Shown here in pieces: positions 21,351 to 31,488 of a stretch of DNA of 41,798 nt (position 1 is its first letter; every line of letters starts with the position of its first letter). Origin of the DNA: Gemmatimonadaceae bacterium (GTDB lineage Bacteria; Gemmatimonadota; Gemmatimonadetes; Gemmatimonadales; Gemmatimonadaceae); NCBI GenBank assembly GCA_036504815.1, contig DASXUN010000005.1, forward strand, positions 1-41,798, read 5' to 3'. A model generated the notes under the pieces. That model worked only from the letters and a program-made list of their open reading frames with translations. It made no database searches and was not told the origin of the DNA. The position numbers were made by a program, and so were the translations under genes.

Positions 21351-21383
21351 CCGCTTCGCTCACCGCTTCGCTTCCGCTTCGCT
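21351..21383. repeat. Three copies of a 10-bp repeat next to a stop codon
   Basis: CCGCTTCGCT occurs at 21351, 21363 and 21374. The third copy touches the stop codon (21383-21385) of the minus-strand helical-repeat gene. Spacing is 12 and 11 bases. Confidence 0.8.
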
Positions 21384-22165
21384 CACGGCTTCTTCACCAC
21401 GCCCGTGACCGTGCCGGCCACGCCGCCCGCGACACCGGGCAGTCCGCCCTTCGCGGCGGCATTGGCGTTACCCTGCGCCGACGCGTTGGCTCCACCCGCC
21501 GCCGCCGTCGCCAGTCCGCTGGCCGACGCCGCGGCGCCCGGCGTGCCCGCCGGAGCCAGCGAGAGAATCGTCGCGTCGGACGCCCGCGCGTCGAGCTTGG
21601 CCTGCACCCGCGACAGCGCCTGCGTCACGGGGAGACCCTCCGCCGCGAGCCGCGAGACGACATCGAAGGCCACGACCAGCGATCGATTGCTCGGCGTGTG
21701 GCGCGCCATCGCCTCGATCTGCGCCGAGGTGGCGCCGTGGGCCATCAGCATGGCACCGCGCGAGATCTCCTCGCCGCTGGGCCTGGCCCGACCGGCCGCG
21801 AGCATCGCTTCCTGCGTGGTCTCCATGTCAGCCTGCGTGCGACCGGCGGCGGCAAGAATGTCCGCCTCCGACGCACCCTTGGCTTCACCCTCTGCTACGC
21901 GGTCCGCGATCGGCTTCTCAGGCAGCTCGCGCTGGCGCGCCGCGCTGAACATGCCCTCGAGTTTTGCGCGGCCGTTCGCGCTGAACCGCTCCGGCACATT
22001 GAACGCGGCATTGGCGTTGGCGTGCGCGCGTGCTTCGGCCGACGCTTTCGGGTCGGGCGCCGTCGCGGATACGCCGGCTTGCGTCGAGGCCTTCGCCGAG
22101 GCGCCAGCCTGCGCCGAAAGCATGGCGGGAACGAACAGTACAGCTCCGATCAACGACGGTCTCAT
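21383..22165 (-). CDS. Exported Ala-rich helical-repeat protein, unknown function
   Basis: 260 residues with a signal peptide (MRPSLIGAVLFVPAMLSAQA). After an Ala/Ser/Thr-rich linker there is a helical core (about 58-200) with related segments of the type 'RVAEGEAKGASEADILAAAGR', 'RGAMLMAHGATSAQIEAMAR' and 'RLAAEGLPVTQALSRVQAK', each a helix-Gly-helix unit. The C-terminus is low complexity (Ala/Asn/Gly) and ends in VVKKP. No enzyme motif is visible. It starts with GGAGGATCG-ATG, and its ATG overlaps the stop of the upstream barrel-CBM48 gene as ATGA, so the two are coupled and probably act together at the outer envelope. Confidence 0.75.
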   Translation of the reverse strand: MRPSLIGAVLFVPAMLSAQAGASAKASTQAGVSATAPDPKASAEARAHANANAAFNVPERFSANGRAKLEGMFSAARQRELPEKPIADRVAEGEAKGASEADILAAAGRTQADMETTQEAMLAAGRARPSGEEISRGAMLMAHGATSAQIEAMARHTPSNRSLVVAFDVVSRLAAEGLPVTQALSRVQAKLDARASDATILSLAPAGTPGAAASASGLATAAAGGANASAQGNANAAAKGGLPGVAGGVAGTVTGVVKKP

Positions 22166-23367
22166 CGATCCTCCTGGTTGTGCGTGGAAACTCGGGCGGC
22201 GCCAGAGGCGACGGTCACGAAGGCGGACTTTCCGCCGAAGCCGTCGTCCGAGGCCACCGCCCCTTCCGGCACGCGCCACGCGTTGCCATCAACGCGGAAT
22301 GCGTACCGATATTCACCGGGCGCCAGCGTCACGTCCGCATACCACACGCCATTGGCGGCGCGCCGAGCGGGGACGGGCGTCCAATTGTTCCAGTCGCCGG
22401 CCAGCTCGACGCGCGACGCCTCGGGCGCGCGAATCGAGAGCCGGGTCGCGTCGCGGGGCACCCGCGGCGCGCCCTCCGGGCGCGGCAGCCGCAATGGGCG
22501 CGGCCCGCCGTTGCGCAGCACCAGGCCGACGCTCACGAACCGACCGCTCGACGCGCCGGTCAGCCACGAACTCGGGTACCGTCCTGCGCTCGCCTGCAAG
22601 AGGAGCGACGAGGTGAGCGAGAACGACGCCGATCCACTGGAAACGTTCATGCGTTCCACGGGCGACGTGCGCCGTCCGGCGCTGCCGCCAAGGAGCATGC
22701 GCCCAACGGCGATCGACGCACTCGCGGCGCGATCGAGCACCAGCGTGCCGGCCACGCGACTGCGTTCTTCGCGGTAGGAAAGCAGCAGCGGCGTGTCGCC
22801 CGCCATCGCCTGCCATTGCGCGCCGTATACCGGGCCGCGCGCCGTGCGGGTGATGGAGGTAAGGGTCACCGGTACCGGTGCGGCCGCCGTGCGCACCCCG
22901 CGCATGATGGTGCGCCCGCTGGCAAGGCGCGCTCCGGCGAAGGCCGTGATCGGCCCGAAGTGCATCTCGAGGGCCGGGGTGACGTCGCCGACGCTGAAGG
23001 TCGCGCCATACGACGTGCGCACGTAGCTGCCGGCGGCGTTGAGCGTGAGCGAACTTCGCATCCGCTCGCGGGTGCGCGCCGAGAGCCCAGCGTCGGCCCC
23101 GGCCTGCCATCCATCGTCCTGCAACCGGCTGCCGGAAGCCGAGAGCGAGACGTTCACCGGCGCGAGCGGAAAGAAGACGACGCCGGGGGCGGCGCTGACG
23201 GTGGTGGAGCGAAGGCCGCGCGCATCCGTGGACGATCCCGCGCCGATGCTGAACTGCGTGACCACCTGCTGCGCCCACGCGGCACGACAGGCGGGGATGC
23301 TCACGCCGACGAGCGCCACGATCACGAGACTGGATGGGACGAGGGCAGCGAGACGAGTCTTTCGCAT
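22162..23367 (-). CDS. Outer-membrane barrel-like protein with C-terminal glycogen-binding (CBM48/AMPK-beta type) domain
   Basis: 401 residues. A signal peptide (LVIVALVGVSIPACRAAWAQQ) precedes about 260 residues of alternating short beta strands (STTVSAAPGVVFFPLAPVNVSLSASGS, RERMRSSLTLNAAGSYVRTSYG, VSVGLVLRNGG), which suggests a small outer-membrane barrel. Residues about 308-388 are an isoamylase-N/AMPK-glycogen-binding beta sandwich: RVELAGDWNNWTPV, NGVWYADVTLAPGEYRYAFRVDGNAW, with the WNNW and Y-x-Y-x-F-x-V-DG landmarks. Such domains are usually cytoplasmic regulators of glycogen enzymes, so an exported fusion is uncommon. It is followed by an ATGA-coupled helical-repeat gene. ATG 23367 fits the signal peptide. 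Confidence 0.78.
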   Translation of the reverse strand: MRKTRLAALVPSSLVIVALVGVSIPACRAAWAQQVVTQFSIGAGSSTDARGLRSTTVSAAPGVVFFPLAPVNVSLSASGSRLQDDGWQAGADAGLSARTRERMRSSLTLNAAGSYVRTSYGATFSVGDVTPALEMHFGPITAFAGARLASGRTIMRGVRTAAAPVPVTLTSITRTARGPVYGAQWQAMAGDTPLLLSYREERSRVAGTLVLDRAASASIAVGRMLLGGSAGRRTSPVERMNVSSGSASFSLTSSLLLQASAGRYPSSWLTGASSGRFVSVGLVLRNGGPRPLRLPRPEGAPRVPRDATRLSIRAPEASRVELAGDWNNWTPVPARRAANGVWYADVTLAPGEYRYAFRVDGNAWRVPEGAVASDDGFGGKSAFVTVASGAARVSTHNQEDR

Positions 23368-23440: not shown

Positions 23441-23547
23441 AACCTGCAATACGGTCGAGGCGCGACCTATCGGCCGACGTCCGAAATGGCCGTCAGCCGC
23501 TGTCCTACGTCCTGTTGTCAGTCTCTAAGAGGCGCGCGGCGTCCGCC

Positions 23548-24549
23548 TCAGTATCCGCGTGTGCGGTCTACGGCCCAGCGTGGCACGCGTCCCTGCTCGA
23601 CGTCGGCAAGGCATTCGAGGAACCCGTCCACGGCTCCGGCGACGGTCGTGGGCCCGGCGCAATGCGGCGAGATCAGCACGCGCGCATGATCCCAGAGGGG
23701 AGAATCAGGCGGCAGCGGCTCCACCGCGAACACGTCGAGCGCGGCGCCGCGCAGCCACCCCTGCAGGAGCGCGCCGGGCAGCGCATCCTCGGCGACCACC
23801 GACCCGCGTCCCGCATTGAGCAGCACGGCGCCACGGCATCGCGACATGACGGACGCCGAAAACAGCCCGCGCGTGGACGGCGTGTCGGGCAGGGCAAGAA
23901 TGATCCAGTCCACATCGGAGACGAGTTCCGCGAGGGCGCCGACCGCATGCATTGCGCGGAATGGTGATGCGTTGCCGAGCGCGCGAGGTGCGGCACGTGG
24001 GGTGCCCGAACGCGAGACACCGTCCACCGTGACGCCAAGCGCTGCGAGCTTCGCGGCGATGGCGCTCCCGAGGTCGCCGGTGCCCACCACGAGCGCGCGC
24101 GTGCCCGCTACCAGCGGCACGTCGCGCGGCGCCCATCGATGCTCGTGCTGCGCCGCCGCCAAGTCGAACAGCTGGTGCTGAAACGCGAAGATCCGCGCGA
24201 CCGCCCACTCGGCGATGGCCGGTCCGAACGATTCCGGCGTGCGCGTCAGCAGGATGCTCGGATCGAGTCCGGGTGGCGCCAGCCAGGCATCCACGCCGGC
24301 CCCCGTGCAGTGCACCCACCGTACGCCGCCCAGCGCCGTCGCGTGCGGTGGCCGCTTGAAGCCGACGTACGTGTCCGCCCACGCGAGATCCTCGGCGGTC
24401 ACCTCGGTGTGGAGGGCGCCGCGGCATTCCAGGGCCGGACGCGCCGCGCGCAGCGCCGCGACAATCGCCTCGTGGGAGCGCGTCGCGACGAGGACGCGAT
24501 GCGGCGCGCCGGCCGGCACGGGCGCGCCCGCCGGCACGCCGTCGCTCAT
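23548..24549 (-). CDS. D-isomer-specific 2-hydroxyacid dehydrogenase family protein
   Basis: 333 residues. The catalytic/cofactor layout is typical: a Rossmann segment ALVVGTGDLGSAIAAKLAALG (GxGxxG) then the D-2-hydroxyacid dehydrogenase triad: Arg in LLNAGRGSVV, Glu in VFAVEPLPPDSPLW and His in LISPHCAG. Upstream is the substrate-domain text VRWVHCTGAGVDAW. It interconverts a 2-keto acid and a 2-hydroxy acid with NAD(P)H. The substrate is not evident, with glyoxylate/hydroxypyruvate or phosphoglycerate-type acids being usual. ATG 24549 overlaps the stop of the c-di-GMP phosphodiesterase as ATGA, so it belongs to the signalling operon by translation, an odd pairing. Confidence 0.9.
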   Translation of the reverse strand: MSDGVPAGAPVPAGAPHRVLVATRSHEAIVAALRAARPALECRGALHTEVTAEDLAWADTYVGFKRPPHATALGGVRWVHCTGAGVDAWLAPPGLDPSILLTRTPESFGPAIAEWAVARIFAFQHQLFDLAAAQHEHRWAPRDVPLVAGTRALVVGTGDLGSAIAAKLAALGVTVDGVSRSGTPRAAPRALGNASPFRAMHAVGALAELVSDVDWIILALPDTPSTRGLFSASVMSRCRGAVLLNAGRGSVVAEDALPGALLQGWLRGAALDVFAVEPLPPDSPLWDHARVLISPHCAGPTTVAGAVDGFLECLADVEQGRVPRWAVDRTRGY

Positions 24550-25742
24550 TGGGGAATGAGCGCGCCGAGGTGCTGCGTCCACCCCGCGTGCCAGGTGTTG
24601 AACGTCTCCGCGGGCATCGGCCTGGCAATGAAGTACCCCTGCGCGATGTCGCACCCCGCGGCGCGCATCTGCTGCCAGTCGGTGAAGACCTCGACGCCCT
24701 CCGCGACGGTCGTCAGGCCAAGCTGTCGCGCCATCCCGAGGCTCGCTTCGACAATGGCGCGCGCCGACGCGTCGCGATCGGCGCCGTGCACGAAGCCGCG
24801 ATCGATCTTCAACTCGTCGAATGGAATGTTGCGAAGCTGCGCGAGCGAGGAGTGCCCGGTGCCGAAATCGTCGATCGAAAGGCCAATGTGCTTCAGGCGC
24901 AGGCGCGTGAGAATGTCGAGTGCCATCACGACGTTGGTCATCAGCCGCGTCTCCGTCACTTCGAGGACGAGCTGACGGTTCGACACCCCCGCGTCGCGGA
25001 GGGCGCCCTCGACAAAGTCGGGGAAGTCGAGCGCGGCGAGATTGTCCATCGAGACGTTCACGGCGACGACGATGGCCGAGCCTTCGTCAAGCCAGGCCCG
25101 CGCCTGCCGCAACGCGGCCAGCAGCACGACACGCGTGAGCGCATCGATCAGCCGGTGCTCCTCGGCGACGCCGATGAACTGGTCGGGGTAGACGAGCCCG
25201 TCCTGTGGATGCTGCCAGCGCACGAGCGTCTCGACGCCGACCACCTTGCCGGTGGCGAGCTCCACCTTGGGCTGGTAGTGGTTCACGAGCTCGCCGCCGT
25301 CGATGGCCCGCGCGATCTCCTGCGGCCCGTAGGTCTTCCGCGGTGCGCGGGGCGGAGCCTTGGGCGCCGGCGCCGGCGCTTCAACGAGGGCGCGCAGCCG
25401 GTCCGGAGCCACCGGCTTGTTCATCGCGCCGCGCACGTCGAGCGCGTGGGCCTTCGCCAGCGTGGAAGCCGTCTGCAGGATGCGATCGTCCTCGCCGCTG
25501 ACGAGGATCAGCCCGCCGGAGTACTTGAGGCGCGCCAGGTGGCGGACGAACTCGATCCCATCCATCTCGGGCATCTGCAGGTCCAGCAGGATCAGCTCCG
25601 CCGCGTGCACGTCGGCTTCGAGCGCCCGCACCGCCGCCATCGCATGCTCGTGCGTCGTGACCTCGCTGAAGCCGAGCGTCTGCAGCTGGCGGCTGACGAG
25701 GCGAAGCGCGAACGGTTCGTCGTCGATGACGAAGATCTTCAT
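24546..25742 (-). CDS. Response regulator with EAL domain (c-di-GMP phosphodiesterase)
   Basis: 398 residues: receiver domain (1-115) with D54 in LILLDLQMPEMDG, acidic pocket IDDE (6-9) and K109, then a Pro/Ala linker and an EAL domain (about 138-395). The EAL signature itself reads ETL (E171). The other catalytic residues are intact: N229 (VAVNVS), E261/E264 (LEVTE), DDFGTGHSSL (D291, D292), K312 (KIDRGF) and E348/E351 (AEGVE). This REC-EAL layout and size match RocR of Pseudomonas aeruginosa. It probably lowers c-di-GMP when phosphorylated. It is 31 bases downstream of the giant hybrid kinase, its likely partner, and coupled to the dehydrogenase gene. Confidence 0.95.
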   Translation of the reverse strand: MKIFVIDDEPFALRLVSRQLQTLGFSEVTTHEHAMAAVRALEADVHAAELILLDLQMPEMDGIEFVRHLARLKYSGGLILVSGEDDRILQTASTLAKAHALDVRGAMNKPVAPDRLRALVEAPAPAPKAPPRAPRKTYGPQEIARAIDGGELVNHYQPKVELATGKVVGVETLVRWQHPQDGLVYPDQFIGVAEEHRLIDALTRVVLLAALRQARAWLDEGSAIVVAVNVSMDNLAALDFPDFVEGALRDAGVSNRQLVLEVTETRLMTNVVMALDILTRLRLKHIGLSIDDFGTGHSSLAQLRNIPFDELKIDRGFVHGADRDASARAIVEASLGMARQLGLTTVAEGVEVFTDWQQMRAAGCDIAQGYFIARPMPAETFNTWHAGWTQHLGALIPQ

Positions 25743-25773
25743 GCGAGCGGGTTCCGGTGGGCCGGCGAGAGGG

Positions 25774-31488
<5,715 letters not shown>

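Follow-up and report, generated by a model that had tools for sequence, protein, structure and literature searches.

What does an exported carbohydrate-binding-type domain do at the end of a predicted outer-membrane barrel, and why should the gene for such a protein be joined to that of a helical protein? These questions are raised by two genes, here called A and B, that lie in the window, by which we mean the whole 41,798-nucleotide stretch of Gemmatimonadaceae DNA that was analysed. A first-pass annotation, made from the sequence, had placed the pair at 21383-23367, bounds that proved exact. It described a CBM48-type domain behind an outer-membrane-like beta domain, export of both proteins and coupled translation of a helical-repeat partner, and it proposed that the pair binds surface or extracellular alpha-glucan, or that the domain has been reused for binding proteins. 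The features discussed below are collected in Table 1.

Table 1. Positions in the window of genes A and B and of the elements associated with them
Feature	Position	Strand	Basis
Gene A, exported barrel-CBM48 protein, 401 aa	22162..23367	-	ORF, ATG start, Pfam, AlphaFold2 model
Predicted 14-stranded beta-barrel, gene A residues 34-286	22510..23268	-	AlphaFold2 model, DSSP, VIA-align
C-terminal CBM48/AMPK-type domain, gene A residues ~306-388	22204..22452	-	Pfam, PDB sequence match
Trp329 of A, equivalent of AMPK Trp100	22381..22383	-	alignment
Trp364 of A, equivalent of AMPK Trp133	22276..22278	-	alignment
Gene B, exported alpha-helical repeat protein, 260 aa	21383..22165	-	ORF, AlphaFold2, HELI profile
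ATGA overlap, stop of A and start of B	22162..22165	-	sequence
AGGAGGA, ribosome-binding site of B	22169..22175	-	sequence
42-base element upstream of A, common to two sister pairs	23466..23507	-	sequence match

The C-terminal domain of A scores above the curated cut-offs of two Pfam profiles, AMPK1_CBM (29.7 bits against 26.8, residues 316-386) and CBM_48 (28.1 bits against 22.4), and a phmmer search of PDB sequences matches A to the CBM of AMPK beta-1 with an E-value of 2.4e-5. NCBIfam offers no dedicated family for either protein; the CBM48 portion of A gives sub-threshold hits to branching enzymes. The N-terminus of A is predicted to be a hydrophobic helix or signal peptide, which is followed by a beta-rich middle. 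In the AlphaFold2 model, built on a 55-row alignment, the mean pLDDT is 88.2 and values are mostly above 90 over the barrel; DSSP assigns to the model 14 strands, each of at least 8 residues, between residues 34 and 286. A signal peptide followed by 14 strands, together with the fold matches described below, is the pattern of OmpG and CymA, and we predict that A is an outer-membrane barrel of this type. The proposal of a CBM48-type domain behind an outer-membrane beta domain is thus borne out by Pfam and the model.

On which side of the outer membrane does the domain lie? Known outer-membrane barrels have their N-terminus in the periplasm, and an even number of strands returns the chain to the side from which it started, so that the CBM48 domain of A is predicted to be periplasmic and not on the surface. 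If the N-terminus of the barrel is assumed to be periplasmic, the seven outer gaps between strands total 39 residues and the six inner gaps 18, a distribution that fits an orientation with both barrel ends in the periplasm. Display of the domain at the cell surface was rejected on the even strand number and the loop lengths, and the surface or extracellular binding of glucan proposed in the first-pass annotation is not supported by the model on the same ground. In the 55-row alignment Arg233 (window 22669-22671) is the only invariant residue of the barrel and Asp212 (window 22732-22734) is nearly invariant; the two are possibly a charged pair in the pore.

The closest solved structure to the barrel is CymA, the cyclodextrin channel, with VIA-align Z of 19.1-19.4 over 229-240 residues; the best chains of OmpG follow at 16.6-17.8, then Omp33 at 15.0 and FadL-type channels at 14.0 or less. 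Foldseek ranks an OmpG first, at E 5.9e-9. A shared barrel fold is no proof of function for A, and FadL-type lipid channels match the model too. CymA has an N-terminal plug of 21 residues (PMC11186346). A plug of that kind, of about 21 residues, is lacking in A, where strand 1 of the model starts at residue 34, directly after the signal peptide, leaving no room for it.

Turning to gene B, the ATGA through which its translation was thought to be coupled to that of A is confirmed at 22162-22165, and the same 4-base overlap recurs in the sister pairs L075, L076 and L077. The N-terminus of B is hydrophobic and ends near Ala-Gln which, with the signal peptide of A, supports export of both proteins. 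The AlphaFold2 model has helices from residue 39 to residue 201, with pLDDT of 95-98 over residues 61-200, in agreement with the helical-repeat partner first described, and B is predicted to be an alpha-solenoid. Searched at E up to 1, Pfam returned zero matches to B, which scores 136.8 bits against HELI, the profile of the helical protein made from the sigma modules described below. With the model of B, Foldseek returned nothing at E 0.001 or better, and the best VIA-align rows were designed helical repeats (Z 9.0 and 8.9, a range common for helical proteins); neither search gave a clear natural structural relative. The whole of B would lie in the periplasm. Homologues of A and B stand in the same arrangement in other genomes, which argues that the pairing is more than chance.

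Where does such a pair come from? Elsewhere A- and B-like genes are members of a larger module, which in full consists of an ECF sigma factor, a membrane anti-sigma factor ending in a CBM48 domain, a helical protein and a barrel-CBM48 protein. One sigma, one anti-sigma, one helical and one barrel gene each supplied a profile, and the four profiles were searched against every ORF in the window and in 80 loci from 60 related genomes (81 sources with the window). The loci were picked by their match to A or B, so that the counts of architectures describe a non-random sample. Several loci lie at contig ends (L118, L124, L129, L133, L136, L137 and L138 among them) and some of these are incomplete, and start codons of homologues were set by a simple rule. 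Of the 70 barrels, 55 went into the alignment for structure prediction, and of the 80 helical proteins, 54 did. In 47 of the 81 sources the genes for sigma, anti-sigma, helical protein and barrel follow one another in this order on one strand, which is the arrangement seen most often. The barrel gene comes first in 6 and lies on the opposite strand in 3, with one further such locus in which the helical gene was not found; in 2 (L065 and L069) a helical gene follows the barrel as a fifth gene. A barrel gene is missing beside the sigma, anti-sigma and helical genes in 5, of which one lies at a contig end. In 6, the window included, barrel and helical genes occur with no module sigma gene; at one of these pairs, L067, the other strand has a sigma gene that looks unrelated. 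The helical gene is alone in 3, and the remaining architectures are single cases, several of them at contig ends.

In the examples scanned with Pfam, the sigma proteins have sigma regions 2 and 4 and the anti-sigma proteins have CBM48. One hydrophobic segment (Kyte-Doolittle at least 1.6) was counted in 60 of 67 anti-sigma proteins, three short rows being left out, and we infer from gene position and topology that these CBM48 membrane proteins are anti-sigma factors. The Hx3Cx2C zinc motif of class I (ASDI) anti-sigma factors was found in none of 70. Zinc-free ASDIs exist, and in Gemmatimonadetes class I anti-sigma factors are linked to the majority of the ECF factors (PMC7406223). Members of the helical family occur in 258 of the 395 genomes sampled from the phylum and in 97 of 138 genera. 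A plasmid search gave zero matches with the helical protein as query and four records with the anti-sigma protein, covering 38-46% of the query, mainly its CBM48 part. In the open-access papers searched, no description of the CBM48 anti-sigma factors, the operon or the pair came up, though an unnoticed ECF group label may exist.

The genome of the window has a complete module as well, on contig C30 (L063), paralogous to the window pair; there sigma and anti-sigma genes are adjacent, whereas among the ORFs of the window the module profiles found no sigma gene and no second CBM48 ORF, and A and B thus have no such neighbours. It seems clear from the trees that the pair descends from the module. 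The barrels of the six sigma-free pairs, here called orphan barrels, form one clade (support 100/100), which sits inside a 20-row group together with sigma-linked barrels (99/98), and the orphan helical proteins cluster with the solitary ones (10 rows, 99/95). Judged by sequence, the window pair is derived from this module, which is common in the phylum, but is sigma-free. A possible route is descent from the five-gene form, in which a second helical gene follows the barrel: the orphan and solitary helical proteins are joined, more weakly (87/71), by those that L065 and L069 encode as a fifth gene. The barrel of L065 falls inside the group of the orphans, but that of L069 lies elsewhere, a placement that does not fit such a route. 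The solitary helical genes (L080, L081 and L140), which have no sigma, anti-sigma or barrel gene with them, cluster with gene B.

Searched with a profile built on the six orphan barrels, 15 of 179 genomes of the family, in 7 of 35 genera, have a barrel of this type; within the genus the distribution is patchy, with pairs in 4 of 11 genomes, some of the other genomes being incomplete. In all nine additional genomes the helical gene comes next on the same strand, and beside these nine pairs no CBM48 anti-sigma gene was seen; two of them, L172 and L175, have a sigma gene nearby on the other strand. A survey of co-occurrence, which the first-pass annotation had called for, therefore finds B next to A in 15 of 15 genomes with an orphan-type A. 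The picture of a conserved pair stands, but its paralogy to the exported half of a four-gene module had been missed.

Does the CBM48 domain of A bind a sugar? In AMPK the critical sugar contacts are Trp100, Lys126, Trp133 and Asn150 (PMC4032982). Trp329 of A, the equivalent of Trp100, is one of only two invariant columns in the 55-row barrel alignment, and the Trp is present in all 140 CBM48 domains compared (6 orphan barrels, 64 other barrels and 70 anti-sigma factors). The Trp133 equivalent is kept in 6 of 6, 61 of 64 and 53 of 70 of these, respectively. Both residues are present in the nine further orphan barrels, read by eye at the C-termini, so that the conservation check proposed at the outset came out positive in 15 of 15. 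Loss of the two Trp and lack of a conserved pairing, which the first-pass annotation had named among the outcomes that would speak against it, were thus not observed. The other two contacts fare differently. At the position of Lys126 all six orphan barrels, that of the window included, have Ala, and none of the 64 other barrels has Lys. At that of Asn150 the orphan barrels have Ser (five, A among them) or Thr (one); Asn occurs there in 0 of the 64 other barrels but in 42 of the 70 anti-sigma factors. A thus lacks the combination of Lys126 and Asn150 that marks the glycogen- or starch-binding CBM48 of AMPK beta-1. The plant protein AKINbeta2 keeps the Trp pair and not Lys126 or Asn150, and still binds starch (PMC4032982). 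With this precedent and the Trp pair, the ligand of A, as far as sequence can tell, may be a glucan or another glycan. The loss of the Lys126 and Asn150 contacts also fits reuse of the domain for binding protein.

A related issue is whether the surroundings point to a substrate. The neighbour scan took 20 hand-picked proteins, one from each of 20 loci and mostly long ORFs, and found carbohydrate-enzyme domains in 0 of 20, on which ground a carbohydrate-utilisation locus was rejected. The 20 comprise six FadB-type proteins, three with DUF4382, three DEAD helicases, two aldehyde dehydrogenases, a serpin, an aminotransferase, a weak TPR match and three with no match at E 1e-5. A FadB-type beta-oxidation gene adjoins the sigma module in L101, L112, L142, L105, L066 and L074, which is a second sign that the ligand might be a lipid instead of a glucan. 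DUF4382 lipoprotein-like genes (L064:1262-2422, L069:7310-8215 and L077:3492-4160) adjoin sigma modules and one orphan pair. A PF00128 (GH13) match occurs in 40 of 49 genomes with an A-family match and in 5 of 11 others, a weak association since the Fisher p of 0.021 takes no account of kinship; nine of the 49 have no PF00128 match, and most of these nine are more than 90% complete.

As to expression, the 42-base element upstream of A occurs just once, by exact match, in its own genome. Three of the 11 genomes of the genus have it, always ahead of an A-B pair, and the copies were aligned by eye; the fourth pair of the genus, in G003, is without it. The element is probably a promoter or operator. 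Upstream of the sigma gene of the complete module in the same genome lies a different sequence, GTGAC...GCGGGTATGTG (G000:C30:249096-249125), which may be an autoregulated promoter; inspection by eye shows similar sequences in most of these 11 genomes. A promoter common to the window pair and this module was ruled out, as the upstream elements differ. Directly upstream of A, on the same strand, window 24546-31488 (-) encodes a response regulator with an EAL domain (Pfam) and a long ORF with histidine-kinase-like motifs, recognized by eye. Regulator genes are also found near the sister pairs L075 and L077.

How might these parts work together? Our best reading, which we favour tentatively, is that A is a porin-like channel whose periplasmic CBM48 domain takes hold of a glycan, acting together with B and no longer coupled to a sigma factor. 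Small solutes, probably oligosaccharide-like, would pass the barrel, the two-Trp face of the domain would capture glycan on the inner side, and B would dock on the same domain of A. The anti-sigma factor of the complete module has a CBM48 domain too, which would either read the same ligand or compete for the helical protein, with release of the sigma factor, so that occupancy of the outer-membrane pore would be linked to sigma release. In the window pair this link would have been cut, leaving a capture unit under the control of its own promoter. In 15 genomes the helical gene accompanies the barrel gene alone, and in 5 loci it accompanies the sigma and anti-sigma genes alone; this retention suggests that the helical protein touches both the barrel side and the sigma/anti-sigma side.

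One might think, given the lost contacts, that the CBM48 fold in these proteins serves protein contacts only, the domain of A binding B, or the CBM48 domain of the anti-sigma factor, instead of a sugar and acting in the periplasm as a latch between outer and inner membrane. This is a substantial possibility, though we are inclined to doubt it. Besides the missing Lys126 and Asn150 equivalents of the barrels, it agrees with the constant adjacency of B to orphan A, with the 0 of 20 neighbours that are carbohydrate enzymes, and with the nine genomes that have A-family matches and no GH13. It leaves aside that the two sugar-facing Trp residues are the best-kept residues of the domain, and that AKINbeta2 binds starch with the Trp pair and without Lys126 and Asn150 (PMC4032982).

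Two further explanations place the domain on other glycans. Were the CBM48 domain outside the cell, binding surface or extracellular alpha-glucan, the profile match and the Trp pair would be expected, and the commoner occurrence of GH13 with an A-family match (kinship ignored) would find a place. We consider it very improbable, since the even strand number and the loop lengths put both barrel ends in the periplasm; autotransporters do thread a passenger out via the barrel, but that passenger is normally N-terminal. Alternatively, A might be a structural envelope protein, a barrel anchor whose CBM48 domain binds peptidoglycan or another envelope glycan. The order of its parts is that of OmpA, barrel first and periplasmic domain last, and the neighbours have no metabolic theme for one nutrient. 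This too appears improbable, if somewhat less so: Pfam finds zero OmpA-type matches in A, and hence no peptidoglycan-binding domain of that kind, the barrel has 14 strands and not 8, and the tie to a sigma/anti-sigma pair suggests signalling.

If the preferred reading of A and B as a porin-like capture unit is extended to the parent module, one arrives at a glycan-sensing sigma pathway spread through the phylum, in which porin and anti-sigma factor have the same periplasmic CBM48 sensor, the helical protein is a bridge for which they compete, and the window pair is the sigma-independent effector half. The whole of this scheme is rather unlikely to hold. If true, it would provide a Gram-negative counterpart of the carbohydrate-sensing anti-sigma factors, with pore and anti-sigma factor using one sensor domain. 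The hypothetical proteins of the module, among them a helical protein present in about two thirds of sampled genomes, would become a testable pathway, and the sigma-free pairs would show which of its parts work alone.

How does the locus compare with systems already described? The 14-stranded monomeric sugar channels CymA (Klebsiella oxytoca) and OmpG (E. coli) have the fold type that the model gives A, at a sequence identity of just 6-10%; unlike them, A has a C-terminal CBM48 domain, predicted to be periplasmic. With the CBM of AMPK beta, A has in common the Pfam and PDB matches and the Trp100 and Trp133 equivalents, but in A the domain is exported and joined to a barrel, with Ala for Lys126 and Ser for Asn150.

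The parent module resembles SigI-RsgI of Clostridium thermocellum, in that a sigma gene lies beside that of a membrane anti-sigma factor with an extracytoplasmic domain of carbohydrate-binding type. RsgI, the anti-sigma factor of that system, bears a carbohydrate-binding module (PMC6056542), and the link proposed here from pore to sigma factor is comparable in plan. The module differs in its ECF sigma factor, its CBM48 domain and the outer-membrane barrel and helical protein of its operon. It differs also in the zero carbohydrate enzymes among the 20 scanned neighbours, and the window pair in having no adjoining sigma or anti-sigma gene.

The FecA-FecR-FecI system is similar to the parent module in another respect, as an outer-membrane protein, an inner-membrane anti-sigma factor and an ECF sigma factor are encoded together. 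In the FecA plan these three act together in TonB-dependent surface signalling. That plan includes a TonB plug domain in the outer-membrane protein, whereas the 14-stranded barrel of A carries none, and in the parent module, unlike the FecA type, the barrel and the anti-sigma factor have one domain type in common.
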